NCBI GenBank assembly: GCA_947504035.1
Contig: CANNGA010000011.1
Coordinates: forward strand, 62,001 to 126,000
Source of the DNA: an uncultured Flavobacteriaceae bacterium
GTDB lineage: Bacteria; Bacteroidota; Bacteroidia; Flavobacteriales; Flavobacteriaceae
Length of the DNA stretch: 64,000 bases
Reading direction: 5' to 3'
This document shows positions 15,415-59,116 of the stretch, in pieces (position 1 is the first letter of the stretch; every line of letters starts with the position of its first letter). The notes beneath the pieces are model-generated. The model saw only the letters and a list, made by a program, of their open reading frames with translations, was not told where the DNA came from and made no database searches. The position numbers and the translations under genes were made by a program.

Positions 15415-15457
15415 GCAATATCTTCTTTTTTGAAGTAAAAACTGTCCTGAGGTATCT
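15415..15457 (-). promoter_or_regulatory. CAGGAYA-box promoter of the GH78-to-PL8 operon
   Basis: On the minus strand the site reads AGATACCTCAGGACAG, then GATATTGC starting exactly 27 bases after the first C of CAGGACAG. The same geometry is seen before most transcription units here. The -7 box is imperfect (GA instead of TA). It lies about 40 bases before the GH78 start. Confidence 0.6.
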
Positions 15458-15474
15458 CGCTTTTTAAAACTTAT

Positions 15475-17394
15475 TTAAGTTACCGTAATCGTACAAGAAA
15501 TCTCTTTAATTGCTTTAGGAAAAACGAATATTAAAGGTAACACTTCCATACCTGGCACTTGGTTAAAAATACGTTCTTCTTTCCTGCCTTTTATTTTAGC
15601 AGGTACGTTAGACACAATTCTAACAATACCTTCTTTTTTATGTAATTCTATAATGTACTTTGAAGGCCTGACCACTTTTTCTCCTGTTTGCGAAATAATA
15701 GGGACTACGAATGTATCTCCATTAGCTTCTTCTGAAGTCCTTCTAGCTTTTAAAATAGCCTTTTCTCTATCAAATTGATAATTTAATAGAACATTTGAGT
15801 GATCTATCGCATACTCTTTATCTCTATTCGTTAAGGTTGCCATCACTTTAAAATCAATAGTACCATCTTTATCTGAAAAACCTACTTTAGCTTTTAAATC
15901 ATGAATATTAGTGTACCAAACAGCATCAACCCATCGTTCTACTCGGGGTGTTATACAAAAATCGGCATTCGGTTGTGGTTGTTGATTAAAAGGCTCTACC
16001 ACCAAATATTCTGCCATACTCGCTGTAAACAACGGCCCTACTTTATCATGCCATAACACATTAAGTGCCCCTCCTGTTCCTGCTACAGAATATGCTTTTT
16101 TCCAAATTTGATCGTAGGTAGATACAGTGCTTTTCCATGGCCCTCGTACCCCTAGCCAAACGTCTAATTCTGGAAAGTGTTTAACCCCATTACGAACACT
16201 TCTAGGTACAGGAGTCTGTTTATCTAGATTTCCTATTTTTTCGGTATTATCTAAAATAAAAGCTAAACTTTTAGCATGTGAAAATGTGTGATGTATACAT
16301 GGTTTTATGCCATGAGATTCATAATGCAGCCCGCCTGCTAGTAGACCATTTACTGTACAACGTTCTAATAATTCTGTATTTAGTACGGCTGCAGTGCCAA
16401 AAGCAGGATTTCTATGTGCCATAAGTGCAAAACCTGGCTGGCATCCATCTGTCGTGCGACTGCCCCAATAGCTCCACTTATTTTGTCGCGTGCCAAAACT
16501 GTTATCCCAAGCCCCATCTGGTAGCATAAACTCTAAATGACCTTCCATAGATGTGGTAAGCAATTCTAATAACACGTCGTCTTTCTCTAGAATCGCATAC
16601 TGCACTACAGCATTTAAAGATTCCTCTACGTTATACCCTATATCTATAGGGTATAAACCTTTTGCACTCTTATCATTATCTGGTTTATCTTCACCAAAGA
16701 TTAATTTATTAGGCTCTGTTAGATACTTTGGCACTAGTGCTGCAAATTCTTTACTACGTTTAATGTAGGCCTCCTCTTTGAAGTAGTGCCCTAAAAAATA
16801 AAGAGCATAAATAGCTGTAAACCTATAGTTAATATGACTAAAATGGATATCAAACCTATCATAAACAAACGCTATTGCTTCTTTAAGCCTTGCATCCCAC
16901 TTGGCCTTTAAATCTTTTGACAATAAATGTCCATGATATTTTAGCGCTTCTCCTAAGGCAATTGCACCAAACACTGTAATTCCATTCCATGATTTAGGAT
17001 CAATCATGTTTGTCCAACTTCCCTTTGGCCCATCTACATTCACAGACCAATCTAACAATTTTAGTGCTGCATCCAAATATTTTTGTTCTCCAGTAGCATC
17101 TGCCATATACATAAGGGGATATACTGCTTCATTTGCTCTTCCGTGTACAACTTCACAGGCATAGCAATAAAGCGCCCCATCATGAACTGGGTTACTTTTA
17201 TCATCCACCTGATCACGAATCATGGCATCACACCATATTTTTAATAGATTAAAGGTTTGTTTTTCAAATGCAGTCATCCCACTTTCAGACCACACTTCTC
17301 GTTTCCCTTTTTCAAAACCGCAACTGTACATAGGCATTACCATCCCTATACTCACCAATGCAGAACTTCTAATAAATACTCTTCTTTTCATCAC
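15475..17394 (-). CDS. Tat-exported protein of unknown function, possible alpha/alpha-toroid lyase or dehydratase
   Basis: The protein has 639 residues and is a full-length paralogue of the protein at 52244. It starts with a twin-arginine type signal (KRRVFIRSSALVS) that includes a Cys. I do not recognise a named family. The first 400 or so residues are helix-rich and toroid-like, and the last 200 look like a beta-sandwich, an arrangement similar to heparinase-II/III-type lyases. Blocks kept in both paralogues: GYNVEE, LPDGAWDNS, KWSYWGSRT, NPAFGTAAV and PCIHHTF with HAK. The conserved Asp, Tyr, Arg and His are good candidates for an active site. A role on uronate-containing ulvan oligomers is inferred from context only. 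A terminator at 17471-17518 separates it from the lyase gene upstream. Confidence 0.85.
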   Translation of the reverse strand: MMKRRVFIRSSALVSIGMVMPMYSCGFEKGKREVWSESGMTAFEKQTFNLLKIWCDAMIRDQVDDKSNPVHDGALYCYACEVVHGRANEAVYPLMYMADATGEQKYLDAALKLLDWSVNVDGPKGSWTNMIDPKSWNGITVFGAIALGEALKYHGHLLSKDLKAKWDARLKEAIAFVYDRFDIHFSHINYRFTAIYALYFLGHYFKEEAYIKRSKEFAALVPKYLTEPNKLIFGEDKPDNDKSAKGLYPIDIGYNVEESLNAVVQYAILEKDDVLLELLTTSMEGHLEFMLPDGAWDNSFGTRQNKWSYWGSRTTDGCQPGFALMAHRNPAFGTAAVLNTELLERCTVNGLLAGGLHYESHGIKPCIHHTFSHAKSLAFILDNTEKIGNLDKQTPVPRSVRNGVKHFPELDVWLGVRGPWKSTVSTYDQIWKKAYSVAGTGGALNVLWHDKVGPLFTASMAEYLVVEPFNQQPQPNADFCITPRVERWVDAVWYTNIHDLKAKVGFSDKDGTIDFKVMATLTNRDKEYAIDHSNVLLNYQFDREKAILKARRTSEEANGDTFVVPIISQTGEKVVRPSKYIIELHKKEGIVRIVSNVPAKIKGRKEERIFNQVPGMEVLPLIFVFPKAIKEISCTITVT

Positions 17395-17470
17395 TACACT
17401 TTTTCTTACGGCAAAACTAAACCTAATTTAATAATTCTTCTATTTTAAAAATATACTTATTTTTTATCAA

Positions 17471-17518
17471 AAAAATATGCATTACGACTTCAATATTGAA
17501 ATCGCAATGCATATTTTT
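17471..17518 (-). terminator. Long AT-rich hairpin terminator after the BNR lyase gene at 17560
   Basis: A near-perfect inverted repeat with arms AAAAATATGCATT and AATGCATATTTTT around a TTCAATATTGAA centre. It sits just 3' of the 17560 gene, with T-rich ends on either strand. Confidence 0.7.
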
Positions 17519-17559
17519 CACTAGAAATAGTCTCTAAATCAAATGTTTTAGGTGTAATT

Positions 17560-20037
17560 TTATTTTACAACTAATTTAGAGTGGAATGCTTTTTGAGTCT
17601 CTCCAACCACTCTTATCAAATAAATACCTGGAGTGAATTTCCCTTGCGTTTGTATACGAATACTGCTAGACTGTACAGGTGTTGTGTATACTGTTTTACC
17701 TAAAATATCACTTATAGTAATTGTTACTTTACCCAAAGCATTCATTTTAATAGTAAACCCATCTTTTGCTGGGTTAGGAAATACGGTAACTGCCTGTGGT
17801 GCAATAGCCTCTTCATCTGTACTCAATGTCGATGTTGCTAAAACAGATTCTGCGACCCATTTACTTCTATCATCTGTAGCTGCTGAATGTACAATTGTAT
17901 TATCTGTATCGTGATACAAATAGCGGTCTATATTTCTTGTTTTAAAACTAAACGTTTCATTTACGGCATCGTAAAGTACTTGCCACATTTTATCAGAATC
18001 TTCTCTAGGTGCAGCAAACCCTGTATTTATCATGGTACCATCTGCGCCTCCTGCATATCTTAGTATACCTCTAGCAGATTTACTTTCTATATTATAAAAG
18101 TTACCAGAACTAACTTTAACAAACTCCCATTGTTTATCACTACCTTCTGAAGCGCTACTTGCGGTAAGTCCAGAATTCTCAGAATCTAAATACAGTCCTG
18201 TTGCCACATTCTTTAATCGGTATATATCTCCTGTTAAATCTGAAGGATCTCTTTCTTCTACAGTTACTGTAATTGCTTCTGAGGTTACAACTTCTCCTGT
18301 ACTGCTATACGCTATAGCATCAATATCATGTTCGCCTATAGCTGTAGCCTCCCATTCTATAGAGAATGGCGCTTCGGCATCGGTCGCAATTATTTCACCA
18401 TCTATTCTAAAATCAACTTGAGTAACAATGCCATTATCTGTATAGGCATCGGCAACAATTTTTGTAGACGTTCCCGAACTTACCGTACTATTGTTTGATG
18501 GTGTTGTTAAGGCAACTTCTAGTGGTGTTGGTGTGGCATCTATATCTAAATCAATAATTTGTAAATATATAGGCTGAGCACTTCCTGTTTTCTTTTCCAT
18601 AAGATAATAATACAGTTTTCCATCTTCAATATAAACAGCACCGTGATCAAAGCGTTTTCCAGAAGTAGCTTCATACACGCGTCTAAAGTTATTTGTACCG
18701 CCTTTCGCTTTTTCAACAAAAACTCTATCGTTAGCGTTTAAACCAATTATATATACATTATCTCCATAGGTATATATGTCTGTAGCTCCTGCGAATTCTG
18801 TCGTCGTTGTAAAATCGGCAGCTCCTGCTCTCTTATAATTATGGCTATTTTTAGTTACACCATTTTCATTATCTCTTACTGTATTGATCATATGAACATC
18901 ACCTTGATCGGTAACAGTCCAATCAAACCCTCCAACAATATATACTTGATTCTTTGCTGTGGTTTCTACAAGATCTCCGGGCTCGAATACTTTAACTTTA
19001 TCGGCGTCTAACAATGGCAATGAAAACCCTTGTCCTGTATGATCTTTCCAACTGTCTGTACCGTCTTGATTATCTGAATAGGCATAATACACCCCATTTT
19101 GATATTGAAATTTATCATCATTATTTGAGGATCTACGCTGAAAACCTACTCTTATTTTCCCATCTACATATTTCATATTTCCATAGAGTCCCCAATTATA
19201 TTGCTCTCCCATGCTTCTCGCTCCTAACACATTAAAATGGGTAAAGCTAGACCACGTAGAGGTACTGGCTGTATATTTTGAAAATTTGTAAGCTCCATTA
19301 TTATTTCCACCTTCTCTTATATACACAAAAAGATCACCAGAATCATTTAAAAAGAATTGAGGATAGGTTAAGCCTTGGAAGTTTGAATAATCTTCTCCCC
19401 CATTTAAACTTAAATGCTTGTATCCGCCATCTTCATTTGGCATAAACTGATCTAATGTGAACTGTGCATCGGATACAGAAGCTGCATTTTTTGCTGAAAA
19501 AGAGTATCTAAAATAGTCGTTAGAAAGACTTCCGTCTGAAGGTCTATTTCTAGAGTAGGCATGCATGTCGTATATCATATGAATGGTCCCATCTAAAGGG
19601 CTTATTCCTAAACCTATAGTATTATGCGATTCTCCAATCCACCATCTGTTTAAATAGCCTGTATGGCGATGCGGAAACTCTATGGTAGCGATAGTATTTG
19701 TAATGGTATTGTAACGGGATAACATGACGTGCCGATCTGCCTTATCACCACGGTACCATGTCATAAAAACATACTCATTGTAGGTCTTAATACAATCACC
19801 ATGTGCTGATATGCTACGGCCAAAAAAATAATCATACGGCGCGTCTTCTCCTGTATTAGGAGCATTACTTGTTACTTTAGAACCACCGAAATGTAGCGCT
19901 ATATCTGAAATTTTAATTTCATTTTCTAGTACAACTTGCGCATTTATAGTTGCGAGATAACCTAACAAAATACTTAAAGTTACGACTAACTTTAGCAATT
20001 GTTTTTTAGGTTTTGTTTTGAAAGTATTTTTTTTCAT
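17560..20037 (-). CDS. T9SS-secreted BNR-propeller ulvan lyase (PL24/PL25-like) with Ig-like and trefoil-like modules
   Basis: The protein has 825 residues. Order: Sec signal (1 to about 33, ending ATINAQ), a BNR_4-type seven-bladed propeller (about 40-500), an Ig-like domain (about 515-605), a trefoil/RICIN-like module (about 610-740, DIYRLKNVATGLYLDS) and a T9SS type A sorting tail (FPNPAKDGF to the C-terminus). The propeller has ESHNTIGLGISPLDGTIHM then YDMHAY: two His 21 residues apart. Known PL24/PL25 ulvan lyases have a similarly spaced catalytic His pair. Expected reaction: beta-elimination next to uronate in ulvan, outside the cell. It is a full-length paralogue of the gene at 56516. 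Confidence 0.85.
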   Translation of the reverse strand: MKKNTFKTKPKKQLLKLVVTLSILLGYLATINAQVVLENEIKISDIALHFGGSKVTSNAPNTGEDAPYDYFFGRSISAHGDCIKTYNEYVFMTWYRGDKADRHVMLSRYNTITNTIATIEFPHRHTGYLNRWWIGESHNTIGLGISPLDGTIHMIYDMHAYSRNRPSDGSLSNDYFRYSFSAKNAASVSDAQFTLDQFMPNEDGGYKHLSLNGGEDYSNFQGLTYPQFFLNDSGDLFVYIREGGNNNGAYKFSKYTASTSTWSSFTHFNVLGARSMGEQYNWGLYGNMKYVDGKIRVGFQRRSSNNDDKFQYQNGVYYAYSDNQDGTDSWKDHTGQGFSLPLLDADKVKVFEPGDLVETTAKNQVYIVGGFDWTVTDQGDVHMINTVRDNENGVTKNSHNYKRAGAADFTTTTEFAGATDIYTYGDNVYIIGLNANDRVFVEKAKGGTNNFRRVYEATSGKRFDHGAVYIEDGKLYYYLMEKKTGSAQPIYLQIIDLDIDATPTPLEVALTTPSNNSTVSSGTSTKIVADAYTDNGIVTQVDFRIDGEIIATDAEAPFSIEWEATAIGEHDIDAIAYSSTGEVVTSEAITVTVEERDPSDLTGDIYRLKNVATGLYLDSENSGLTASSASEGSDKQWEFVKVSSGNFYNIESKSARGILRYAGGADGTMINTGFAAPREDSDKMWQVLYDAVNETFSFKTRNIDRYLYHDTDNTIVHSAATDDRSKWVAESVLATSTLSTDEEAIAPQAVTVFPNPAKDGFTIKMNALGKVTITISDILGKTVYTTPVQSSSIRIQTQGKFTPGIYLIRVVGETQKAFHSKLVVK

Positions 20038-20121
20038 AAGCGTTTATTGATTAAATTCACAAATCAATTGTAGATTTATATGGGGTAATTTCTATATTTC
20101 TCATCACTAAATAGTCATGCA

Positions 20122-20137
20122 GTGTCCTGATACATTT
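20122..20137 (-). promoter_or_regulatory. CAGGAYA box upstream of the BNR lyase gene at 17560
   Basis: Minus strand reads ATGTATCAGGACACTG, matching the locus box. No clear TAnnTTTG lies at the usual 27-base spacing, so the promoter assignment is weaker than for the other units. Confidence 0.4.
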
Positions 20138-20413
20138 ACTCTATTTTATGTTAATTTATTGACAAATCCTTATAATTTAATGTTTTTTATGCAAAAAACC
20201 TAATTTCAACACATTGCAAACCAAAAAAATGCCATTTGGAGCTATCAAATGACACTTTTAAATATTAGTTTTTATAGTGTTTTTCCGTACTTTAAATTCT
20301 CTTTAATATCACGCTTTTTTATGATGTTATTTTTTAACACTACCGATTCTCTTACGAAATTAAACACTTTCTTTTAAAAGCCTTCTCTCATAAAAACACT
20401 AATAGAACTTCAC

Positions 20414-20451
20414 AAAAAAAAGCCCAGTTCTCCGTAGAATACTGGGCTTTT
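20414..20451 (-). terminator. Intrinsic terminator after the BNR lyase gene at 20493
   Basis: Stem AAAAGCCCAG/CTGGGCTTTT with an inner TTCT/AGAA pair, followed on the minus strand by a T run. It lies 40 bases 3' of the stop. The rest of the 455-base gap holds only the upstream box at 20122 and AT-rich sequence. Confidence 0.8.
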
Positions 20452-20492
20452 AATCGTGTTAATTTATTTTAAAATAATACAGACATCACCTA

Positions 20493-22613: not shown

Positions 22614-22938
22614 ATCTGGCTTTGTCTGTGTGTGTGGTGTGTTTAGTTTAGTCATTGTTTTAAATTCATTTAGTTAGTAAAAAAATAAGAGTGCAGCTTT
22701 CTAAAGCTTATTCCTGTTTGTATACATAAGATCCTTGTTTTGAAAGCATAAGGATGCTTTGCTGAGTATCAAAGAATTGGTATATATGTATGTTTGAATA
22801 TCCTGTGTCGCTGAATCGCTACCACGGTTTTAGCATGAAATAGGTCCATAATATCTGTTTAGTTCGTTGTATTTGAATCTCGAAGATGGTCAGTCCACAA
22901 CAAATACAGTACGAAAAAACATTCAAAATTTAACATGA

Positions 22939-22954
22939 CTATCCTGTACTATAA
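22939..22954 (-). promoter_or_regulatory. CAGGAYA box upstream of the BNR lyase gene at 20493
   Basis: Minus strand reads TTATAGTACAGGATAG. The box is 325 bases before the chosen start, implying a long leader. The sequence at the expected -7 position (TTTTTTCG) is a poor match. Confidence 0.4.
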
Positions 22955-23108
22955 GGGTGTTTAGTTAATTTAACTTGTAGTTTTTTTAATATTAAATAGA
23001 AGTTGTTGAGTGTAAGATTATTAAACAAAAAACCATACTAGTAGGATTTACCTTGCTTTTTATCGAATTAATTCTGTGTTATGAATGTTTTAAAAAAAAT
23101 GACAAAAA

Positions 23109-23133
23109 AAAGGCTGTCTTTTCAGACAGCCTT
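23109..23133 (-). terminator. Intrinsic terminator after rhaM
   Basis: Stem AGGCTGTCT/AGACAGCCT with a short loop; the minus strand continues with a run of T. It lies about 30 bases 3' of the rhaM stop. The rest of the 22614-23161 gap holds the box at 22939 and nothing else I recognise. Confidence 0.85.
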
Positions 23134-23161
23134 CTCGGTTTACAGTGTATTATATTTTAAA

Positions 23162-23766: not shown

Positions 23767-23794
23767 AAAAGCAACGGCTATACCCGTTGCTTTT
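23767..23794 (-). terminator. Intrinsic terminator after the GH3 gene at 23834
   Basis: Stem AAAAGCAACGG/CCGTTGCTTTT with a short loop, then a T-rich run on the minus strand (TTTTGTTTTT). It lies 40 bases 3' of the stop. Confidence 0.85.
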
Positions 23795-28537: not shown

Positions 28538-29929
28538 TTAAAAATTTCGTAAGCCTGGAACTATTTTAATATTTAAGCGTTTTCTACCTTTTGGCCACTT
28601 TAATATGATTAATTTTTGTCTAAAAGCATCCCAAATAAAGTCTGAAGCACTTACATTGTAAGGGCTTTTATACGTTTCCATACCTACGGTCTTTAAAGGG
28701 TCGTAATATAACACTATATCGTCATCTATTAAAATAGAAAATCCATCTGGATAGTGTCTATTGGCTCCTATAAATAAAGTTGAAGGCCCTTTAGCGTAAT
28801 CTGGCACAATATTAAGACTTAAAGTTCGCTTAGCGTGATCAAATAAAAAAGATTGAATATCTCCTGCTATGGCCTGCGGAAAAGGTCTCGCAATAACGTC
28901 TGTAATGTATTTGCGTTCTACAGTACCAACGTCTGTGCTATCACTAAAAATAGACCATGTAGATGGGCCTCCCGGTAAAAAGTGTTGCATGCTTCTATTT
29001 CCTAAAAACCAAGCTTTTATAGCCCCTACCCCCATACGATCAAAAACTTCTGCGGTTCTAATATAAAGCTCTCGGTATTTTAATTGTCCTAAATTACCTT
29101 GAATAAGAGTATCTGTAGTGGCAAAGGTAGGAAACCCCCATTCGCCTATTAAAATTGGAGCTTTTAACATATCTGACTCTCTATCAAAGCGGTCCATATT
29201 TCGCTTTATAAAATCTATATCATTTTGATAGATATGCGGTGCAAAAACAATGTTTTTTCTATTTATGGGCGCTGTTACTTCAGAATATTGGTTGTTATCT
29301 ATTTTCTCTCCTTTATTCATAAAAATAGATTGAAACAATATGAGTTTATCTGCATTTATGTTTTGACTTTCATCTATTATCTTTTGATAAAGCGGAATAA
29401 GGAAATCATTTGTTAATTTTTCATAAGACATCTTCATGGTTAATTTTCTAGGTTCATTAACGACATCGTAACCTAAAACCGAGGTATTCGTAGCATACCT
29501 GTTCCAAATGACTTTCCAAGCGTCTATATACGTTTTATATTCTCCTTTTTTATTTTTCCAAAACGTTTCCCAAACAAATTTATCTACACCATAAACAGTC
29601 ATTTTAAAAACAGTCTTTATTCCAGAATGCTGTCCTAAAGCAACCAAAGTATCTAACTTTTTAAGGTAATTGGGGTCTAATTTCCCTCCAGGAAAACGAC
29701 TCAACTTACCCAATTCTAATCTTATGACTTGCGTATTAGCCCCCATACGCACCATACGCGCATAATCATCACTGCTAAAAAACACTTCCCCTTCATGATC
29801 ATTTGTATTTACAACAAATCCTCTTGGTATGACATGCCGTCCTAAATCATCTCTTAGACCATGCTTAATTTGCGCTGAAACGTGTAGTGTTGTCAATACA
29901 AGCGTCCATAATATTACTTTAATTTTCAT
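28538..29929 (-). CDS. GH5-like clan GH-A glycoside hydrolase
   Basis: The protein has 463 residues and a Sec signal ending LHVSAQ. The TIM barrel has the two clan-A glutamates: acid/base E159 in YDVVNEPRK and nucleophile E263 in ILIGEWGFP. The start (GLRDDLGRHVIPRGFVVNT) and the GEWG motif recall the endoglycoceramidase-like part of GH5. A beta-sandwich of about 90 residues ends the protein. GH39 is less likely from the motifs. Substrate unknown; a beta-linked end sugar of ulvan oligomers is the contextual guess. It is the first gene of a unit with the GH3 gene, and a good promoter lies just upstream. Confidence 0.8.
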   Translation of the reverse strand: MKIKVILWTLVLTTLHVSAQIKHGLRDDLGRHVIPRGFVVNTNDHEGEVFFSSDDYARMVRMGANTQVIRLELGKLSRFPGGKLDPNYLKKLDTLVALGQHSGIKTVFKMTVYGVDKFVWETFWKNKKGEYKTYIDAWKVIWNRYATNTSVLGYDVVNEPRKLTMKMSYEKLTNDFLIPLYQKIIDESQNINADKLILFQSIFMNKGEKIDNNQYSEVTAPINRKNIVFAPHIYQNDIDFIKRNMDRFDRESDMLKAPILIGEWGFPTFATTDTLIQGNLGQLKYRELYIRTAEVFDRMGVGAIKAWFLGNRSMQHFLPGGPSTWSIFSDSTDVGTVERKYITDVIARPFPQAIAGDIQSFLFDHAKRTLSLNIVPDYAKGPSTLFIGANRHYPDGFSILIDDDIVLYYDPLKTVGMETYKSPYNVSASDFIWDAFRQKLIILKWPKGRKRLNIKIVPGLRNF

Positions 29930-29967: not shown

Positions 29968-30009
29968 CAAATGTATGGTCTTATATCTGTTTCAGTGTCC
30001 TGAACAGTA
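29968..30009 (-). promoter_or_regulatory. CAGGAYA-box promoter of the GH5-GH3 unit
   Basis: Minus strand reads TACTGTTCAGGACACTG, then a perfect Bacteroidota -7 box TACATTTG starting 27 bases after the first C of CAGGACAC. The -7 box is about 40 bases before the start codon. Confidence 0.75.
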
Positions 30010-30084
30010 CTGCTAGCCTAGTTATCTTAAAATGACGTCTCACTAAAAGTATTGAATACTTCCGTATACAAGCTCCTTATTTAT

Positions 30085-34800: not shown

Positions 34801-34867
34801 TCAAGATGACGCACAACCACATGCGCCTAAAGCCATAAAAGACTCCTTTTCCAATCTGTAGTTTCAT
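31826..34867 (-). CDS. SusC-like TonB-dependent outer-membrane transporter
   Basis: The protein has 1013 residues: Sec signal to about residue 32 (AMSYAQ), a CarboxypepD_reg-like domain (ISGTITADGQPLPGATVVIKG), a TonB box/plug region (VVIIGYGTQRKSDLTGSVASV, then IRIRGGNSITGSNEPLWVIDG) and a 22-strand-type barrel ending in VITLGLNVTF. It imports oligosaccharides with SusD using TonB energy. The adjacent promoter carries the CAGGAYA box with its upstream repeat. Confidence 0.97.
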   Translation of the reverse strand: MKLQIGKGVFYGFRRMWLCVILMLSFTAMSYAQTISGTITADGQPLPGATVVIKGSSKGTSTDFDGKYKIEAGAKSTLVFSYVGYSSKEILVGTKQTIDIVLEQDNELDEVVIIGYGTQRKSDLTGSVASVTAEDLTVVPVARVDQALQGRAAGVQVTQVSGAPGAGTAIRIRGGNSITGSNEPLWVIDGIIVGTNFNLNNINSNDIKSIEVLKDASSIAIYGARGANGVVLVTTKGGTGVGKGKPEVNVNLYTSMQLVPELPELLSQEEQISFTNESATFRNVAIPFPDAPSTYPNNDWFDLLLRPAPIQNADVSVTGANDNVNYYTSLNYFNQEGIIITSGIEKYIFRANLDIKLSDKLKTGFKINYSRLEQDNGVVGFGTAFSTLRTQPIRNEDGTFSGFNDVVGAPFSNPIANAGLNINETLTNNLLGTLYLEYKPSEKWTLKSTFNPEFNNIKRNRFNSSQQPNLLVINALGDASVEQDASVGWNNENTMQYQSTIGKNHNVTALGGASFQKVTTETSLSEAFGITSDVVGFNDLSFSDPSRSTVNSDFTQFQLASFFGRLNYSYKDKYLLTLVGRADGSSVFATENQYNFFPSVALAWKISEEPFMQNQNVFQDLKIRASYGQAGNQAIQPGSTKGVLVEANTTVNGNERGGLTFGRPSNPNLEWEVTSSFDVALEASFFGGRLFTEFNYYYKRTDDLLLDVSIPRQTGFTTQLQNVGALENQGWELLINSTNINTSHFNWNTTLNLSANKNEILDLGDVDFIDLTVDEILGSGNTRLIVGESVPVFTGVRFLGTWKSQEEIDASGLTDPQVVGGSRFEDVNGDGIISTEDAVVLGSPLPDLIFGLENSFSYKNWDFSFYFQGTLGNEVYNLRTRNHFFNRGETTKFAELANRWTPQNPTSNIPRAGADSVTDTPPNSEYVEDGSHLRLKTVRLAYNLPVEKMHLNALKNATIYVSGSNLLLVSNFRLIDPETSNFGRSGLGNIAQGFAGANYPNPRVITLGLNVTF

Positions 34868-34898: not shown

Positions 34899-34941
34899 CT
34901 AAAATATTTGTTAAAAACTAATAGGCTATCCTGCACTATCC
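34899..34941 (-). promoter_or_regulatory. CAGGAYA-box promoter of susCD
   Basis: Minus strand reads GGATAGTGCAGGATAG, two GGATAG copies 10 bases apart, then TATTTTAG starting 27 bases after the C of CAGGATAG. This is one of the clearest copies. The rest of the 706-base gap up to 35573 is AT-rich, and I see no gene or further signal in it. Confidence 0.75.
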
Positions 34942-35573
34942 GCTACATACCGGTATTATTAACCTACTTTCACATATGCTTTTTCATTTTTTTAACAAGA
35001 AAAAGAATACCAGAAGCTTTAAGAGTCGAACTTTAGAGCATTTTAACATGTACGAATAAGTATCTTTTTATAAGAAGAAAATTATAATATTTTTTTTAAC
35101 CAAATACCATGATATGACCTTTTTTCTTACAATAAAACATTAAATGATTGCTTTTATAAATGACCTGTAAACATTGTGAGAAGGATGCGCTGGGTCTAAA
35201 ATCGTATTGCATATTTTAACAATAAGAACTTTGGCAATGGTTATCATAGTCCTTCAAATTTGAATACCACCAATATGGTATAGATTAAAACAGAATTAAG
35301 AATCTATAATCACCATTCTACTATTGTTTTTTAACATCAGAAGCCTAAATGAGAATTGAAAAGAATACGCATGTTTGGATCTATTTCGCAGGCGTAAGCT
35401 TTCATACAAAAACATGAAATATACAAGGCATTCCGTATTTAAAATTTAGGATAAGCTTTAATGAATTCAATCCGCCCTAAAGTCTTGTCGCATACCTACT
35501 GGCATTTAAAATTAAGATGTAACGGTCTCTAACAAAAGTAAAATAGAATCTTGTTTTATTTAAAACACCATTT

Positions 35574-38881: not shown

Positions 38882-38883
38882 TC

Positions 38884-40546: not shown

Positions 40547-42340
40547 CTATATCTTAGCTGCTTTAGGTCCATCGTAATCATACGTAAACCAATCCACATC
40601 AATATAGCCAGCATCTTCTTTCTCATTCCAAGAAAAGAACCCTAAGCGGTCGCCTGTCCATTTTCCAAAAGCAATTGTAAATATGGGGCCAAAGCGCGTG
40701 TAAGTTTCACCATCTAAGCTGTATTCATAAAAGGCTTGATTACTTGTATTTGACGTTCTCACGTACAATATGTTAGTCGTTATAGCTGGTCCTTGTGTTT
40801 TTTCGGCCATAGGGTTCATATAAAATAAGTGCTTTTTACCAGTCTCATCAACTTCTACACCTAATACGTTAAAAGCACCACCATACCTTACAAAACCTGC
40901 TAATTGGTGTGGCTGCATCCCTGAAATGTCAAATTTTGCAGCTGCCGTTCCTGTAGTTATCCCCATAATACGTTGACTAAGCGTATTAGATGCTCTCCAG
41001 AAATCTGAATCTGATCCGTCATTATTTGTCCATTGATTGATATTTGGCCCATATCCTTTTGCATGAGGCAATACTTTGCTTGCTTTTAAGCGTAACCAAC
41101 CTGTGCGTTCTGTAAGTGACCAATGGGTATCTCTTGGGTTATGGTTCCACTCCCATTGCAAACCTAAAGTCGCTTGAGAAAATGTATCGTCTGTACTAGG
41201 TGCACTTACGGGATACCCATCTATAGGTTTTTTATGTTGTTTTACAGGTTCTCCAATACCGTCATTGTCTTCATCTACACCTATTATTGGCCAACCGTCA
41301 ACCCAGTTTACAGGTTCTAAACATTGAGGTCTTCCTTGAAAAGGAATATCATCGTTTTGAATAAGTTGGTGCATATACCACCACGATTTATCTGGTGCTT
41401 GTATAAGCGCACCTTGGCTACAACTACGGTTATTAAACGCCGTGCCTTTTTCTAAAACCGTCTTTACGTCGTAAGGGCCATAGATACTTTCTTTAGATCG
41501 TAGTACAATTTGCTTTCTATCATTTTTAGGATTCTTAACACCTGGTAACGTAGAATTGTCTCCCATAGTCCACTGCGCTAAAAAGATATACCATGTACCA
41601 TCTATCTTATAAATTTTTGCAGCTTCTGCTCCCATACCTGTATATACCAATTTACCTTCATCTAAGATTTTTGTACCATCCCAGCTCATTTCGTAAATTC
41701 TATTTTCATTACCTTCAATAGTATTGGCTTCACTTTTCTGTTTTCCAGCAGTATTTACAATCACATAAGCCTTGTGGGCTTCTTCATCCCAAAATACAGC
41801 TGGATCATCTAGTACCTTTGCTTTTGGCAACATAAATACGGGTGTTGTCCAAGGGCCTTTAATGTCCTTAGCGGTAGTAACCATTAAACCATGTTGGTAA
41901 TCTATTTGGTAACAATACCAAGTACCATCATGATAGGCCAAATCGCCAGCCCAAACACCAAAAGAGTATCCATTCATACGGTCCCAATTGTATTCTGGTG
42001 CCCACGATAATTTATCAAACACATGTCCTACGTTAGTCCAGTTCACCATATCCTTAGAGGCTAGTATGGGCATACCAGGAGACACATGTTGTTTCGATGT
42101 AATCATATAATACGTATCTCCTACCTGTTCTATATCAGAATCTGGATAATCGGCATTTAGAATAGGATTCACATAAGTTCCATCACCTTGGTCTCCCCAA
42201 CTTCCTGTAGTTCCTTGAGTACTTACTGGGGCTTCTGCACTAGTAGACGCTGTTTCTTTTGCTTCTTGCTTACAACTAAAACTTATTAATAGAGCACCAA
42301 ATACCAAAGGTTTTAGAGTACTTAAATATGATCGCTTCAT
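40547..42340 (-). CDS. GH43 glycoside hydrolase lipoprotein with concanavalin-like C-terminal domain
   Basis: The protein has 597 residues and a lipoprotein signal ending LISFSC. The propeller (about 50-370) has base Asp in NADYPDSDIEQ, second Asp in KVLDDPAVFWD and Glu in GAEAAKIYKIDG. A C-terminal beta-sandwich (about 390-590, FSQATLGLQWEW onward) is of the GH43 C2/beta-xylosidase accessory type. The architecture fits a xylosidase or arabinosidase. It starts a unit with a clear CAGGAYA-box promoter. Confidence 0.9.
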   Translation of the reverse strand: MKRSYLSTLKPLVFGALLISFSCKQEAKETASTSAEAPVSTQGTTGSWGDQGDGTYVNPILNADYPDSDIEQVGDTYYMITSKQHVSPGMPILASKDMVNWTNVGHVFDKLSWAPEYNWDRMNGYSFGVWAGDLAYHDGTWYCYQIDYQHGLMVTTAKDIKGPWTTPVFMLPKAKVLDDPAVFWDEEAHKAYVIVNTAGKQKSEANTIEGNENRIYEMSWDGTKILDEGKLVYTGMGAEAAKIYKIDGTWYIFLAQWTMGDNSTLPGVKNPKNDRKQIVLRSKESIYGPYDVKTVLEKGTAFNNRSCSQGALIQAPDKSWWYMHQLIQNDDIPFQGRPQCLEPVNWVDGWPIIGVDEDNDGIGEPVKQHKKPIDGYPVSAPSTDDTFSQATLGLQWEWNHNPRDTHWSLTERTGWLRLKASKVLPHAKGYGPNINQWTNNDGSDSDFWRASNTLSQRIMGITTGTAAAKFDISGMQPHQLAGFVRYGGAFNVLGVEVDETGKKHLFYMNPMAEKTQGPAITTNILYVRTSNTSNQAFYEYSLDGETYTRFGPIFTIAFGKWTGDRLGFFSWNEKEDAGYIDVDWFTYDYDGPKAAKI

Positions 42341-42368: not shown

Positions 42369-42411
42369 TAAAAATAGAAGAATTCTTTGGAATTATTGTC
42401 CTGATCTGTCA
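42369..42411 (-). promoter_or_regulatory. CAGGAYA-box promoter of the GH43-sulfatase-lyase-DUF1080 unit
   Basis: Minus strand reads TGACAGATCAGGACAA, a GACAG/GGACA repeat with 10-base period, then TATTTTTA starting 27 bases after the C of CAGGACAA. Confidence 0.7.
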
Positions 42412-42589
42412 TGCAAATTCTTTAAGTTTCTAATAATTCTATCAATATTATCTATGCTACTTTTTTAGATTAAAAAAGACAACATATTCATCTTACAAAT
42501 TTAAAGTGTATTTCAGAAAAGCAACATAAACGTTCTCCCCTACGTTTAGTATTCGTTGAGAGTTTTCGCTCTATTCAAACATAAATGGT

Positions 42590-44927: not shown

Positions 44928-44986
44928 AGATCAGACCATTACAGTTTTGTACAGGATAGCCAAAACGGCTATACCGTGTATATTGC
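44928..44986 (+). promoter_or_regulatory. CAGGAYA-box promoter of the first PL28 gene
   Basis: Three CAG triplets lie exactly 10 bases apart: CAGACCATTA, CAGTTTTGTA, CAGGATAGCC. TATATTGC starts 27 bases after the C of CAGGATAG (44979). The first part, AGATCAGACCA, is repeated before the next PL28 gene. The rest of the 44615-45036 gap is AT-rich with no gene. Confidence 0.75.
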
Positions 44987-45036: not shown

Positions 45037-46023
45037 ATGAGACACAAACTAAATTTAAAATTGTTAAGAAAAGCCAGTTATGTATTTACAGCAGTAGCCC
45101 TTTTTTCATGTTCTAATGAAGACCAATTGGAAACCAATTTAGAGCAGCTAGACACCGAACAGATTAACCTTGATTCTAATGCACTATCTGGCAAAAAAAT
45201 TTCAAACCCAAGTAAAAGTTCTAACTGTAGAGCTGGTAATTTTGGTGCCCAATTTTATAAAGTTAATGATGATGCTAATAAGCTCAATCCATTTAATAAA
45301 GACATTAAAGAAATTGATGATAGAACTTGTTACTACAACTATTGGCAACAAACTATTAGTGGTAGAAAAACAGGTATATACCGCTTAAAAGCCAACTCTA
45401 ATCATATTGATAACATTCAACCTAGAATTGAACGCGCTACAAGACGTGTTAATAATAGTAAGAATGGAAATTCTATATCATTTGAAGGCTACTGTACTAT
45501 TCAAGATGTAGGCTTCACCGGTAATCATGATGCGAATCTTACAAGTATATCTGACAAGAACGGTACTTATTTTATCCAAGCTAAAGGGACACATGATAAT
45601 AGAACAATTGGTTCTAAAGATCCTGCTATTCTTTTGTTAATTGCTAAACCTGTATACGAACCTAGAAATGGAAATAAACCTCGTAAATTAAAACACTATC
45701 AAATATTAAGTGAACAAATTAAAAAACGTGGTGGTTCTGGGTCAGATAGAAAGCTTGTTAAAATAACAACTGTTAGAAAAGGACAGCGTTTTAAAGTCAC
45801 TATGAAAAATTATTTCAAAACCAAATTCGACCAGCGTATTGTTGTAAATGTGAATGGTAAACGCTACGAATTTGATGTTCCTAATACCGAAATCAAATCA
45901 GGGCCAAACAAAGGCAAGAGACAATTTGGAAATCAAGCTAAAATTCGTTTTGGCGCCTACCGTTGTCAAGGTGGCAAAGCCAGAATAGATTGGGATAACG
46001 TAAAACAAACACTAAAGAATTAA
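45037..46023 (+). CDS. PL28-like ulvan lyase, surface lipoprotein
   Basis: The protein has 328 residues. The lipoprotein signal ends at Cys25 (AVALFSC) and is followed by SNEDQ, an acidic stretch like the Bacteroidota lipoprotein export signal, so surface display is likely. A jelly-roll domain of about 240 residues follows: DDRTCYYNYW, IQPRIERAT, TYFIQAKGTHDN, DPAILLLIAKP, RGGSGSDRKLVKI and IRFGAYRCQGGKARIDWDNV. These blocks match the PL28 domain in the secreted protein at 54387. The Lys of QAKG and Tyr of FGAYR probably are the catalytic pair. It is a tandem paralogue of the next gene. Expected reaction: endo-cleavage of ulvan beside uronate. Confidence 0.87.
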   Translation: MRHKLNLKLLRKASYVFTAVALFSCSNEDQLETNLEQLDTEQINLDSNALSGKKISNPSKSSNCRAGNFGAQFYKVNDDANKLNPFNKDIKEIDDRTCYYNYWQQTISGRKTGIYRLKANSNHIDNIQPRIERATRRVNNSKNGNSISFEGYCTIQDVGFTGNHDANLTSISDKNGTYFIQAKGTHDNRTIGSKDPAILLLIAKPVYEPRNGNKPRKLKHYQILSEQIKKRGGSGSDRKLVKITTVRKGQRFKVTMKNYFKTKFDQRIVVNVNGKRYEFDVPNTEIKSGPNKGKRQFGNQAKIRFGAYRCQGGKARIDWDNVKQTLKN

Positions 46024-46570: not shown

Positions 46571-46629
46571 AGATCAGACCAGCACAGTATTGTAAGGGAC
46601 GGATTACAAATTTGTTGCTTATATCTTGC
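46571..46629 (+). promoter_or_regulatory. CAGGAYA-like promoter of the second PL28 gene
   Basis: AGATCAGACCAGCACAGTATTGTAAGGGACGG aligns base by base with the promoter of the first PL28 gene. Here the last unit is AGGGACGG rather than CAGGATAG. TATCTTGC starts 27 bases after the first base of that unit. Confidence 0.65.
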
Positions 46630-46687: not shown

Positions 46688-47647
46688 ATGAAAAACAGAC
46701 TAAATTTAAGAACCTTACAAAAAGTGAGTTACGTGTTTGTAGCAACAGCACTCTTTTCATGTGCTAATGAAGATCAACTAGAAACAAACTTAGACCAGCT
46801 GGACGAAAGCCCCATTAGCCTCACTGGAAAGAAAGTTAAAGACGGCAGTGATAAGTGTAGACCAAATAACGGTGGCGCACAATTCAAAAAGTTTAAGGGT
46901 GATGTGAATAAAATTGTGTCTAAAACAGACAAAGAAATAGATGATAGAACCTGTTATTACAACTATTCACAACAAAAGGTGGGCTCAAGAACCGTGGGTG
47001 TTTACCGCTTAAAATCTGGCACAAATCATATTGATAATTTAGAACCAAGAATAGAACGCGCTACACAGAAAACCGATAATAGTAAAAATGGTAATGGAGT
47101 TACTTTTGAAGGCTATTGCACTATTGAAGAAGTTGGTTTTGCAGGTAAATACGATCCTACTATCACTAGTACAAAAGATAAGAATGGCACTTATTTTATA
47201 CAAGCTAAAGGATCACATGACAATAAGACTATTGGATCTAAAGACCCTGCTATTCTTTTATTAATTGCTAAGCCTGTATTCAAACCTAAACAAAAGAACA
47301 AACCTCGTGAGTTAAAACATTTCCAAATCTTAAGTGAGCAAATCAAGGTTCGTGGTGGAAGTGGAGACGATAGAAAACTTGTTAAAATAACCACAGTAAA
47401 TAAAGGACAACGCTTTAAAGTCACTATGAAAAATTATTTTAAGACTAAAACGGATCAACATGTTCTTGTAAACGTAAATGGTACACCATACGATTTTGAC
47501 GTACCTAATACAGAAGTAACTATCAAAAAGAAAAAGAAAAGACAATTTGGAAATCAAGCCAAAATTCGTTTCGGTGCTTACCGCTGTAAAGGAGGTAAGG
47601 CTAAGATATATTGGGATAATGTAAAACAAACTCCAAAGTTTAAATAA
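46688..47647 (+). CDS. PL28-like ulvan lyase, surface lipoprotein, tandem paralogue
   Basis: The protein has 319 residues. The lipoprotein signal ends in TALFSC, followed by ANEDQ (export-signal-like). The jelly-roll blocks are as in the gene upstream: DDRTCYYNYS, LEPRIERAT, TYFIQAKGSHDN, DPAILLLIAKP, IRFGAYRCKGGKAKIYWDNV. The putative catalytic Lys (QAKG) and Tyr (FGAYR) are kept. A run of five Lys precedes RQFGNQAKI, giving a very basic edge that could bind anionic polymer. The duplication includes the promoter core. Confidence 0.87.
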   Translation: MKNRLNLRTLQKVSYVFVATALFSCANEDQLETNLDQLDESPISLTGKKVKDGSDKCRPNNGGAQFKKFKGDVNKIVSKTDKEIDDRTCYYNYSQQKVGSRTVGVYRLKSGTNHIDNLEPRIERATQKTDNSKNGNGVTFEGYCTIEEVGFAGKYDPTITSTKDKNGTYFIQAKGSHDNKTIGSKDPAILLLIAKPVFKPKQKNKPRELKHFQILSEQIKVRGGSGDDRKLVKITTVNKGQRFKVTMKNYFKTKTDQHVLVNVNGTPYDFDVPNTEVTIKKKKKRQFGNQAKIRFGAYRCKGGKAKIYWDNVKQTPKFK

Positions 47648-47859: not shown

Positions 47860-47904
47860 CAGAAGTGTACAGGACACTTAAAAAACAAAAACATCTTATA
47901 TTTC
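47860..47904 (+). promoter_or_regulatory. CAGGAYA-box promoter of the divergent jelly-roll gene
   Basis: CAGAAGTGTA and CAGGACACTT are in tandem with 10-base period; TATATTTC starts 27 bases after the C of CAGGACAC. Confidence 0.72.
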
Positions 47905-54160: not shown

Positions 54161-54253
54161 GTTTATATTATCTCTAAAACCATTGCAAAGTATTATACCT
54201 TAAGGTTTAATCTTAGCACTAGTTTTAATTATTAGGTATCGTTTTTTAAGTCC

Positions 54254-54298
54254 TGAAATTATTAAGATATAGCACCAAAACCATCCTGCATTGTCCTG
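54254..54298 (-). promoter_or_regulatory. CAGGAYA-box promoter of the unit at 54160
   Basis: Minus strand reads CAGGACAATGCAGGATGG, two CAGGA copies 10 bases apart. TAATTTCA starts 27 bases after the C of the second copy. Confidence 0.7.
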
Positions 54299-54328
54299 TA
54301 AAATACGTCCATTTTTATTAGCGTATAA

Positions 54329-54365
54329 AAAAGCGACGCCCTAGTACTTCGTAGAACGTCGCTTT
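54329..54365 (-). terminator. Intrinsic terminator after the secreted PL28 gene
   Basis: Stem AAAGCGACG/CGTCGCTTT with a long loop, T run on the minus strand, 22 bases 3' of the stop at 54387. Confidence 0.8.
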
Positions 54366-54386
54366 AGATATTTAAACTAGTCTTTA

Positions 54387-56396: not shown

Positions 56397-56515
56397 AATT
56401 TATAAATGTTTATTGGGGTACTTATTTTCGTTCATTCACTTTAATACTAGCAATCACGAGCTTATTGAATAGTTATCTTACTTCAATACATCTTCAGTTA
56501 AGTCTATTAACAAAC

Positions 56516-58996
56516 TTATTTTATAATTAGCTTTGAATGAAAGTCTCTATTGTCGCTAGATGTAGATTTTATTAGATAGATACCTGCTTTAAATTTACTA
56601 CTGTCTATATCTAAATCATTTGCTTTAGGTGCATGTTGAAAAACAACTTCACCCAAAATATTATAAATCGTTATTGTTTCTACACGTGCCGCATTTTTTA
56701 ATTTAATAGTAAATTTATCTTCAGCCGGGTTAGGGTATATTGAAATAGAAGTTTCATTTAATTCTTGACTTGATACGCTTAGAACTTGACTTGTGGATAT
56801 GGCTTGCCATTTGCTTCTCGCGTCTGTTGCTTCTGCCGCAATATTTACAATATTTCCACTTTCATCTTGATACATAAATCTATCATTCTCTTTAGCTTCA
56901 AAACGAAATGTCTCATCTATTGCATTGTAATGTACAGCCCATACTTTATCATTATCGGCTGCTGGTGGTGTTTTTGTTGTACTTACCACCAAGTTTGCAC
57001 CTGCTGAAAAACTTTCTCCAGTAAAACGTAAAATCCCAAAGCTATCGCTATCTATATTATAAAAACCTCCACTTTGCACAAAATTCCAATGTGTATTTTG
57101 CGCGTCTCCAGTTGCACTCATTGTAACAGCTGTAGCGCTTGCACCTCCGTCTGTTAAAAATTCTCCCGTTTCTACATTTCGTAGTCTGTACGTATCTTTT
57201 GTTAGATCTGCTGGGTCTACTTCCAAAACGTCTATACGATGTACCTGCGATGCTATATTTTGCTCATTATCATCATAAGCAATGGCTTGAATAGTATATG
57301 TACCTACAGTTTGAGGTGTCCAGCTTAACGTGTAAGGCGCTGCTGTTAATGCTTCATGCAATACACCATTAATCATAATATCTACTTTAGCAATAGCCCC
57401 CATATCTGTTGTGGCTCTAGCAAAAATATCAATAGCTTCCCCTTCGTCATAAACACTTTCATCAGCTGGTGCTAAAAGTGCAACGCCAAATGGTTCTGGT
57501 TCTGTACTTACATCTAAATCTATAATTTGCAAATACGTAGGCCTAGTATCATCCTTATCGGTAGCATGATTTTCTAATAAGTAATAATATAATTTCCCTT
57601 CAGATATGTGTATTTCGCCTTTTTGAAAACGTCTGCCTTCTGTAGCTTCATAAACTTTCGTAAAAAAATTAGTACCGCCTGGTGCTCGCTCTACAAAAGG
57701 GCGTCCAGAACTGTTTAATCCAATAATGAATACATCGTTTCCAGCAGCGTATAATGCTGAAGCACCAGGGAAATCTGTTGTAATTATAAAGTTATTTGCA
57801 CCTGCTGGTTTATAACTATGTATGTTTTTAGTCACGCCGTTTTCATCATCTCTAACTCTACTAATAATATGTACATCGCCGTTATCTGTTACGGTCCAAT
57901 CAAAACCACTCACAATATGTACTTGGTTTTGTAATGTTGTCTCTACATAATCTCCGGGTTCATATACCAAAACTTCTTCTGCTTTAACCAAAGGCATAGT
58001 CATCGCTACACCTTCATGATTTTTCCAATCTGTTGCTCCTGTTGGATCGTCAGAATAGGCGTAATACACCCCATTCTGAAACCTATACTTATCAGATCCC
58101 GTATTCAATCTTCGCTGAAAACCAATTCGTATTTTACCATCTACGTACTTCACATTACCATAGATGCTCCAATTGTTAGTTTCTCCTTTACTACCAGCTC
58201 CTAAGGCATTGATACGTTGGAAACGTCCCCACGTAGATGCACTAGCATCATAGCGTATGAACGCTTGCGCACCATCATGAGATGTGCCTTTTCTCATGGT
58301 TAAAAACAAATCACCTTCATCATTTAAAAAGAATGTAGGATATGTATATTTAGAGTAATGTTCTGGATCTCTCACGCCATCCATAGTACAATGTTTGTAA
58401 TCGCCATCTATAGGGTCTGGTACAAATTTATCAAGTGTAAACTCTTCATCTGGTAATTCGGCAGCATCTGCTACCGAATACGAGTAACGGAAATAGTCAT
58501 TTACAAAAGCACCACTATTCCCGTAGGCGTGCATATCGTAAACCATATGTATTGTTCCGTTTAACGGACTAATTCCTATAGCAATGGTGTTATGCGTTTC
58601 TCCAATCCACCATTTTCCAGCTAAGCCTGTGTGTTGGTGCGGAAACTCTATTGTTTTTTTTGCGCCTGTTAAAGTATTATAACGTGTTAACATAACATGG
58701 CGATCGTTTTTACCTCCACGATACCAAGTCATAAACACATAATGCTTATACGCTTTAACACAATCACCATGAGGAGACAGCGCATTACCATATCTATAAT
58801 CGTAGCCTGTGGTTGAATTTGATGCACTGGATCCCACTTGCACGCCATCAAAAAACATAGCTAAATCAGTTATGTGTACTTCTTCTTCTAAAGTAACTTG
58901 AGCGCTAAGTGTAACTGTAGTTAAAAGTACCACAAGTAATAGTAATCTTTTAAATCCAAGTCCATCGGTATAAGACTTCAAATTCTTTCTTTTCAT
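56516..58996 (-). CDS. T9SS-secreted BNR-propeller ulvan lyase (PL24/PL25-like), paralogue of the one at 17560
   Basis: ATG 58996 (MKRKNLKSYTDG) is preferred; an in-frame ATG at 59044 would add 16 residues before the signal. The signal ends TVTLSAQ. Order: BNR_4 propeller (about 30-490), Ig-like domain (about 510-600), trefoil-like module (about 610-735, [15 protein letters not shown]) and T9SS tail (YPNPAEDKFTI to the end). ETHNTIAIGISPLNGTIHM then YDMHAY keeps the His pair 21 residues apart. The architecture equals that of the 17560 protein, so a duplication separated the two by about 39 kb. Confidence 0.85.
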   Translation of the reverse strand: MKRKNLKSYTDGLGFKRLLLLVVLLTTVTLSAQVTLEEEVHITDLAMFFDGVQVGSSASNSTTGYDYRYGNALSPHGDCVKAYKHYVFMTWYRGGKNDRHVMLTRYNTLTGAKKTIEFPHQHTGLAGKWWIGETHNTIAIGISPLNGTIHMVYDMHAYGNSGAFVNDYFRYSYSVADAAELPDEEFTLDKFVPDPIDGDYKHCTMDGVRDPEHYSKYTYPTFFLNDEGDLFLTMRKGTSHDGAQAFIRYDASASTWGRFQRINALGAGSKGETNNWSIYGNVKYVDGKIRIGFQRRLNTGSDKYRFQNGVYYAYSDDPTGATDWKNHEGVAMTMPLVKAEEVLVYEPGDYVETTLQNQVHIVSGFDWTVTDNGDVHIISRVRDDENGVTKNIHSYKPAGANNFIITTDFPGASALYAAGNDVFIIGLNSSGRPFVERAPGGTNFFTKVYEATEGRRFQKGEIHISEGKLYYYLLENHATDKDDTRPTYLQIIDLDVSTEPEPFGVALLAPADESVYDEGEAIDIFARATTDMGAIAKVDIMINGVLHEALTAAPYTLSWTPQTVGTYTIQAIAYDDNEQNIASQVHRIDVLEVDPADLTKDTYRLRNVETGEFLTDGGASATAVTMSATGDAQNTHWNFVQSGGFYNIDSDSFGILRFTGESFSAGANLVVSTTKTPPAADNDKVWAVHYNAIDETFRFEAKENDRFMYQDESGNIVNIAAEATDARSKWQAISTSQVLSVSSQELNETSISIYPNPAEDKFTIKLKNAARVETITIYNILGEVVFQHAPKANDLDIDSSKFKAGIYLIKSTSSDNRDFHSKLIIK

Positions 58997-59072
58997 AATA
59001 TTTAGTGTTGGCTGTTTAGAAATAAAAAAGTTATGGCAAAACACTTCTATAGCAAATTAACCACAACCTACA

Positions 59073-59116
59073 CAATATTAACAAAATATTTTGATTAATC
59101 TATCCTGACCTATCCC
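59073..59116 (-). promoter_or_regulatory. CAGGAYA-box promoter of the unit at 58996
   Basis: Minus strand reads GGGATAGGTCAGGATAG, two GGATAG copies 10 bases apart. TAATATTG starts 27 bases after the C, one base longer than the ideal -7 box. Confidence 0.65.

Follow-up and report, generated by a model that had tools for sequence, protein, structure and literature searches.

Tandem 10-bp repeats at a fixed promoter distance in a flavobacterial ulvan locus and a candidate GntR-type reader

Operator and promoter sites of the ulvan locus

The stretch of DNA analysed here (the window, 64,000 nucleotides; G000:C11:62001-126000) comes from the genome of an uncultured Flavobacteriaceae bacterium (G000; 4.23 Mb, 73 contigs) and carries a polysaccharide utilization locus (PUL) for ulvan. 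According to Pfam, this PUL encodes PL28 lyases, BNR/PLH30 lyase-like proteins, SusC/SusD-like proteins and sulfatases, together with GH78, GH3, GH5-like and GH43 enzymes. A sequence-only reading of the window had proposed that a CAGGAYA box lies 27 nt upstream of a -7 promoter box before most transcription units. We found all nine proposed sites in place, and in each of them (9/9) a distance of 27 nt separates the start of the downstream repeat unit from that of the -7 box. Six further starts (17394, 26035, 44614, 50442, 56396 and 59505) were not preceded by an operator in the matrix scan of the window, although some of the starts without a site may be co-transcribed with their neighbours. 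Taken strictly, the pattern CAGGAYA-N20-TAnnTT fits five of the nine sites (29929, 34867, 42340, 45037 and 47963) but not the other four: it fails at 46688 and 54160 because the downstream units read AGGGACGG and CAGGATGG, while at 15374 and 58996 it is the -7 box that deviates from TAnnTT (GATATTGC and TAATATTG, respectively).

The window was scanned on both strands with a matrix of 49 columns trained on 168 sites from outside it. This set, like the sets of 78 and 176 sites used below, includes orthologous promoters from related genomes, so that its members are not independent; all three sets were limited to sites with a second unit at most one base off CAGGA. The 11 best places in the window were the nine claimed sites and two weaker copies, with scores from 30.5 to 9.6, followed by a next-best score of 3.6. 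Eleven matches exceeded a score of 6, compared with a mean of 0.73 in sixty simulated 64-kb windows (first-order Markov). The largest simulated score, 16.1, was above those of the weakest sites (46688, 15374 and 20122), and these three are therefore not secure by score alone.

In the following, sites are written as upstream unit, downstream unit, n19 and -7 box. The highest score in the window (30.5) belongs to the operator and promoter of the GH5-like gene starting at 29929 (29968..30012, minus strand; CAGTACTGTT CAGGACAC n19 TACATTTG). Two genes without a Pfam match follow: a 638-amino-acid gene (54160; site 54254..54298, minus strand, CAGGACAATG CAGGATGG n19 TAATTTCA, 28.0) and a 304-amino-acid gene (47963; 47860..47904, plus strand, CAGAAGTGTA CAGGACAC n19 TATATTTC, 25.8). 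Operators and promoters of similar score precede the susC-like gene at 34867 (34899..34943, minus strand; GCGGATAGTG CAGGATAG n19 TATTTTAG; 25.2), whose locus has TonB-dependent receptor and SusD domains in Pfam, and the GH43 gene at 42340 (42369..42413, minus strand; CATGACAGAT CAGGACAA n19 TATTTTTA; 25.0). The PL28 gene at 45037 has its site at 44942..44986 on the plus strand (CAGTTTTGTA CAGGATAG n19 TATATTGC; 24.9) with a third unit, CAGACCATTA, upstream, and the BNR/PLH30 gene (58996/59044) has one at 59073..59117 on the minus strand (CGGGATAGGT CAGGATAG n19 TAATATTG; 22.8). Lower scores were obtained for a further PL28 gene (46688; 46585..46629, plus strand, CAGTATTGTA AGGGACGG n19 TATCTTGC, 11.7) and for the GH78 gene (15374; 15415..15459, minus strand, CGAGATACCT CAGGACAG n19 GATATTGC, 11.2), where both the upstream unit and the -7 box are weak.

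The two copies that had been called weaker, at 20122 and 22939, were both recovered among the top 11, with amendments. The former is a weak site before an ulvan-lyase-like gene (20037; 20085..20129, minus strand, CAGGACACTG CATGACTA n19 GAAATTAC, 9.6), and the CAGGACA box noted there is its upstream unit. The latter is a good operator (22912..22956, minus strand; CCTTATAGTA CAGGATAG n19 TTTTTTCG; 26.9; operator-only match C11:84939) but has no -7 box at 27, where TTTTTTCG stands instead. The next open reading frame (ORF), at 22655, lies 291 nt on; this strong but distant site may represent a distal element or a promoter that has decayed. The top matches include no operator for the PL28 ulvan lyase gene at 59505-60449, which is divergent from an operator-bearing gene.

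Geometry of the operator and the genes that carry it

A logo of 76 sites from the window, its genome and congeners (one of 77 was dropped, as its second unit was more than one base off CAGGA) gave the consensus CAGnAYaGTA-CAGGAYaG-N19-TAnnTTt. The operator is thus a direct repeat with a 10-bp period: two head-to-tail units of 8 bp, separated by a 2-bp spacer, lie on one face of the DNA, and a Bacteroidota -7 box begins 27 nt after the start of the second unit. Agreement among the logo sites extends to bases that the query had left unfixed, namely positions 4-8 of the upstream unit and the final bases of the -7 box. Nothing is conserved in the logo upstream of the two units. The additional units that the sequence-only reading had placed 10 bp upstream are common as a second unit but rare as a third. 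CAG stands exactly 10 bp upstream in 9 of 20 genomic matches that were found by the downstream unit and promoter pattern, with the upstream unit left out of the query, whereas CAG occurs at the third-unit offset in 4 of 176 sites, and a third unit was rejected as a general feature.

As a signal on its own, CAGGAYA was likewise rejected, its enrichment being merely mild (18 occurrences in the window against 11.0 expected; 3 of 100 shuffles reach 18). The signal lies in the combination with the promoter. From the 18 boxes in the window, TAnnTT was found five times at distance 27 and at most twice at any other distance between 8 and 59. Genome-wide, CAGGAYA-N20-TAnnTT gave 20 matches compared with 5 for the reversed pattern, although some of these fall within long ORFs and seem to be chance matches. 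When the genome was scanned with the operator only, TAnnTT stood at exactly 27 in 8 of 10 matches with at most one mismatch and in 12 of 22 with at most two (reversed control: 5 matches). In 562 kb comprising the window and further stretches, the same search at up to two mismatches gave a distance of 27 in 29 of 40 matches and 4 matches at the next commonest distance, a count that is biased because many stretches had been picked for promoter-linked sites. Such a fixed distance between operator and -7 box points to an activator or a promoter element, since a repressor site would not require it. Because the gene-proximal unit starts 27 nt before a primary-sigma -7 box, it covers the -33 region. 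Two other operator-only matches (G000:C6:142552 and C6:145469) precede similar secreted proteins and lack a -7 box at 27; one of them has TAnnTT at 28.

With both units and the promoter in the query and at most two mismatches, the genome contains 17 sites, compared with one for the reversed pattern. Four of them lie in the window and 13 elsewhere. The boxes had been taken for the operator of this PUL's own activator, a view that this distribution replaces with a genome-wide rhamnose/ulvan regulon. The earlier reading had also asked for a genome scan, with equally frequent hits before unrelated genes speaking against it. This was not the outcome: 11 of the 13 outside sites precede genes of carbohydrate degradation, uptake or rhamnose use, namely rhaEW (an aldolase and dehydrogenase gene), a GH78 gene, two PL28 genes, five GH39-like genes, one sulfatase gene and one SusC-like receptor gene. 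The remaining two stand before genes that look lipoprotein-like by eye and have no significant Pfam match. Among the GH39-like genes, two on contig C7 have a common N-terminal sequence, and the one that was scanned matches GH53, with GH39 below the cut-off. These two genes (C7:21328 and C7:25752; L052 and L053) each have their own operator, perhaps a recent duplication that retained the promoter element. A site with a poor upstream unit precedes another PL28 gene (C5:50757), and a site with three mismatches precedes an operon for mannonate-dehydratase-like and glucuronate-isomerase-like proteins (named by eye).

Similar gene sets were found in the congeners. Across 12 genomes, sites with at most two mismatches numbered 14-21 in eight (21 in G003 and 16 in G010), 6 in G007 (87% complete), 4 each in G005 and G009, and 2 in G006, compared with 6 matches of the reversed pattern in all 12 together. 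The site-bearing genes include a lactate-oxidation set (CCG, LUD and LutB domains) and, by eye, a RhaT-like symporter, sulfatases, a GH78-like gene and PL28-like genes. The substrates of these regulon genes are those of ulvan and its sugars. A lipoprotein-like gene of 174/175 amino acids with a perfect operator in two congeners (L048:806-1327 and L072) is a candidate new ulvan gene.

A GntR-type candidate reader encoded beside the rhamnose genes

The candidate reader of these sites, GntR-A, is encoded 37 kb before the window (G000:C11:23675-24712), divergently from rhaEW. It has an N-terminal GntR winged helix-turn-helix (PF00392, 1.9e-10) and a C-terminal Peripla_BP_3 domain (PF13377, 5.5e-09); Pfam at E<=0.001 gave these two only, and no aminotransferase-like domain. 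This location agrees with the sequence-only reading, which had described an activator-type operator that is read from one face of the DNA beside the promoter and whose regulator is not encoded in the window. Five congeners have gntR-A and rhaEW facing each other no more than 700 nt apart, and the conserved element seen between them by eye is the repeat before rhaEW. A palindromic operator was not encountered, the logo giving a direct repeat.

Sites and GntR-A co-occur. GntR-A is at least 78% identical in nine site-bearing congeners and 63% in G005, where the rhaEW promoter has a diverged operator copy with TAAATT at 27; in G006 and G009, the best relatives are 37-38% identical. We extended the comparison to 149 family genomes that, with two exceptions, represent different genera, and counted GntR-A as present at E<=1e-90. 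Sites with at most one mismatch were found in 34 of these genomes (reversed control: one match overall), comprising 28 of 28 with GntR-A and 6 of 121 without (Fisher 9e-25, with phylogeny leaving the genomes not fully independent). Among the 33 genomes with rhaEW, sites occurred in 28 of 28 with GntR-A and in 1 of 5 without (p 1e-4), the lone case being G075, with its site 10 kb from rhaEW.

The association extends to gene position. With a matrix trained on 78 genus sites, those of G000 and G003 included, a site of at least 25 bits preceded the rhaEW match at 22-87 nt in all 26 GntR-A genomes examined (of 28; G013 and G138 were left out). Where rhaEW occurs without GntR-A, three of the five genomes were examined: at rhaEW, G119 and G031 carry a diverged site (17.5 and 11.8 bits, respectively) and a divergent, diverged GntR gene (by eye), whereas the stretch read in G048 has neither GntR nor site. 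Of the 28 GntR-A genomes, 16 have a gntR copy with a site no more than 500 bp away; for a few genomes this count used an incomplete set of sites, although the omitted ones, by eye, leave it unchanged. At the broader limit of 2.5 kb, sites above 12 bits accompany gntR-A in 33 of 36 genome-contig loci, three Echinicola species included, and some of these loci are from congeners already counted. A second copy of gntR-A stands in tandem with the first at G001:C15:307401-309633, G002:C62:110385-112535 and G003:C7:348238-350466; these copies are 65-70% identical to GntR-A of G000.

Together, these data suggest that the boxes are probably operators of a genome-wide L-rhamnose/ulvan regulon, read by GntR-A as an activator on head-to-tail repeats. 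Through its LacI-like sugar-sensing domain, this GntR protein would bind rhamnose or a rhamnose metabolite as inducer. Two of its subunits would occupy the two units of the operator (predicted target, e.g., CAGTATAGTACAGGATAG) and, from the -33 region, would contact and recruit RNA polymerase. The predicted targets are rhaEW, the ulvan PUL of the window, and scattered PL28, GH39-like, GH78, sulfatase and SusC-like genes.

Several points weigh against this assignment. The best-known role of GntR proteins that carry a LacI-like domain is repression from palindromic sites. Six genomes without GntR-A carry one site each, 12 of the 28 GntR-A genomes have no site with at most one mismatch within 500 bp of a gntR copy, and 3 of the 36 genome-contig loci have none within 2.5 kb. 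The adjacency of sites and gntR-A is partly explained by the adjacency of both to rhaEW, and co-occurrence does not separate GntR-A from another protein that is always co-inherited. In addition, several GntR proteins may read the operator, since the paralogues GntR-B and GntR-C adjoin sites in some genomes. The queries behind the logo fixed the upstream unit in part and contained TAnnTT. Finally, TTTG at -33 was found in 0 of 176 sites, but the operator letters partly exclude it by construction, and its lack is weak evidence; the available text of PMC7366714 describes the -33 TTTG as unidentified in Flavobacterium johnsoniae.

Could the same protein act on the same operator as a repressor, covering the -33 region until rhamnose releases the block? 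The operator, judged from the 27-nt spacing, does sit where a -33 element would be, and the best-scoring solved relative of GntR-A by sequence, the AraR DNA-binding domain, is named an arabinose repressor. However, a repressor could work without a rigid spacing from the -7 box, whereas 8 of the 10 closest operator-only matches keep exactly 27, and the different operator of the paralogue GntR-D stands at a nearly equal promoter distance; we consider repression unlikely. That the CAGGAYAG box is instead the -35 element of an alternative sigma factor is extremely improbable. Its fixed distance to the downstream box and the lack of TTTG at -33, itself partly by construction, would fit, but the candidate was rejected because the -7 box has the ordinary primary-sigma form (among 176 sites, each retrieved by a query containing TAnnTT, 114 have TAnnTTT and 62 TAnnTTTG). 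To our knowledge, a like unit one helical turn upstream is also not a usual feature of sigma factor promoters.

The remaining alternatives invoke other protein families. Many PULs are controlled by a hybrid two-component system (HTCS) that has an AraC-type domain. Akin to the sites described here, the motifs of HTCS and SusR-like PUL activators of Bacteroides are direct repeats before PUL genes (as summarized in parts of PMC3878776), and our operator stands upstream of an HTCS gene in G000 (L017; G000:C20:56345) and in G008 (L170:5099-5141). In the site-rich genomes G003 and G010, however, the best match to the C20-type HTCS is just 31% and 35% identical, respectively; an HTCS-type sensor is improbable because these two congeners lack any match above 35% to the site-bearing HTCS, and the C20-type protein was rejected as missing from them. 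A second HTCS lies 2.5 kb from sites in G003; its long matches elsewhere are just about 28-36% identical, and it was rejected for want of a close relative in the other 11 congeners. Moreover, in the two HTCS motifs whose dimensions were read in the same source, 14-16-bp sites with 5-6-bp spacers make up a period of 20-21 bp, compared with 10 bp here, and the membrane sensors are usually encoded in the PUL, whereas the GntR protein is encoded with the monosaccharide pathway. We regard as slightly more improbable still that an unlinked rhamnose activator of the AraC family reads the sites. The genome has 22 HTH_18 matches, and RhaR of Bacteroides thetaiotaomicron is an AraC-family protein that controls rhamnose catabolism positively (excerpts of PMC3870299 and PMC11669328). 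In contrast to the 10-bp period here, AraC-type RhaR motifs have a 21-bp periodicity (same part of PMC3870299), and the reconstructed regulon of the B. thetaiotaomicron RhaR is a single operon (section of PMC3878776). By eye, no AraC-type gene was recognized beside the rha genes in the stretches read (L045, L107 and L166), where a GntR gene stands instead.

Relative to known regulators, GntR-A shares its GntR domain make-up and a role in sugar catabolism with the AraR/FucR type. AraR has a LacI-like sugar domain, and its operator is a palindrome. The system described here differs from this type by a head-to-tail 10-bp repeat at a fixed distance from the -7 box and by a regulon that combines a PUL with scattered genes. 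FucR of B. thetaiotaomicron is classed as GntR (passage in PMC3878776). Activation by a GntR protein from direct repeats has precedent in the MocR regulators (GabR, TauR and PdxR), which have a GntR winged helix-turn-helix, use direct repeats on one DNA face and activate divergent operons; unlike here, their repeats are two or three turns apart, and an aminotransferase-like sensor takes the place of Peripla_BP_3 (available text of PMC5320631). DeoR-family RhaR proteins likewise govern rhamnose regulons through imperfect direct repeats of 10-11-bp periodicity, but belong to another protein family, and RhaR of Rhizobium is a repressor; the DeoR RhaR account, in the portion of PMC3870299 at hand, names no Flavobacteria. 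A DeoR-type reader was rejected on its patchy occurrence, with HTH_DeoR in 7 of 12 congeners and in none of the site-rich G001, G002 and G003. Among the open-access matches listed, we found no paper on a regulator of an ulvan PUL, though enzymes of such PULs have been studied, and none on a GntR or tandem-repeat operator for ulvan or rhamnose genes of Flavobacteria.

The analysis yields a candidate regulator protein, a sharp operator and a regulon list for ulvan use. It suggests that a PUL may be run by an end-product sugar sensor from the monosaccharide pathway and not by SusR, HTCS or extracytoplasmic function (ECF) systems, and that GntR proteins may act as promoter-proximal activators on tandem 10-bp repeats. 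Scans with the operator could also locate unlinked ulvan genes, and the element could serve to construct a rhamnose-inducible promoter for use in marine Flavobacteriaceae.

Paralogous GntR proteins and their operators

Further support for GntR-A as reader comes from a paralogue, GntR-D (37-39% identical), because the 10-bp tandem architecture accompanies this protein type there as well. In loci L152-L162 (e.g., L157 about 3756-3815), a tandem repeat CTAGTAGGGTCTAGTAGG with an exact 10-bp period but a sequence different from that of the GntR-A-linked operator lies upstream of GntR-D, on its strand, and the GntR gene is followed by galactose genes (by eye). The repeat is intact in 6 of 11 genomes, has one or two mismatches in three and was not found in two. 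In these nine genomes, its distance to TAnnTT, which depends on the chosen unit register, is 28 in five, 26 in two and 25 in one, with no TAnnTT nearby in the ninth.

The paralogues differ in the stretch of the recognition helix, which reads SRDTVEKAY in A copies, ERAY in B copies, YKAY or FKAY in five of six C-like copies (FKSY in the sixth) and mostly LMAF in D copies. A basic residue is thus present in A to C and absent in D, and its link to operator type is suggestive only. The spacer between the units also varies: it is TA in 22 and CA in 4 of 26 A-linked sites, TT in B-linked sites (two found of five; first unit CAGTACTG or CGGTACTG), and AG in four and AA in one of the sites found in 5 of 6 GntR-C-like loci. 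A B-linked site before the HTCS gene was not found in G001, G004 and G011. The operator found before this gene in G000 and G008 suggests that a membrane sensor may belong to the regulon.

A wider arrangement is conceivable, though we propose it tentatively. Paralogous GntR-LacI-type activators, encoded beside rhamnose genes (A), an HTCS gene (B), a uronate operon (C) and galactose genes (D), would all use head-to-tail tandem 10-bp operators at a near-fixed promoter distance, with A, B and C reading slightly different spellings of one operator. Ulvan monosaccharides might then jointly switch on the dispersed ulvan system, even the HTCS gene, replacing the usual oligosaccharide sensor inside the PUL.

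Two side observations concern B and C. The 18-bp operator CAGTACTGTTCAGGACAC of the GH5-like gene in the window (29995-30012) is identical to that of the G008 HTCS gene (L170:5099-5116), which stands beside GntR-B, and is perhaps a B-type target. In three loci, GntR-C genes are followed by an AG-spacer site (L163:5307-5349, L103:4623-4665 and L092:8424-8466) and a uronate operon, which by eye encodes mannonate-dehydratase-like and glucuronate-isomerase-like proteins.

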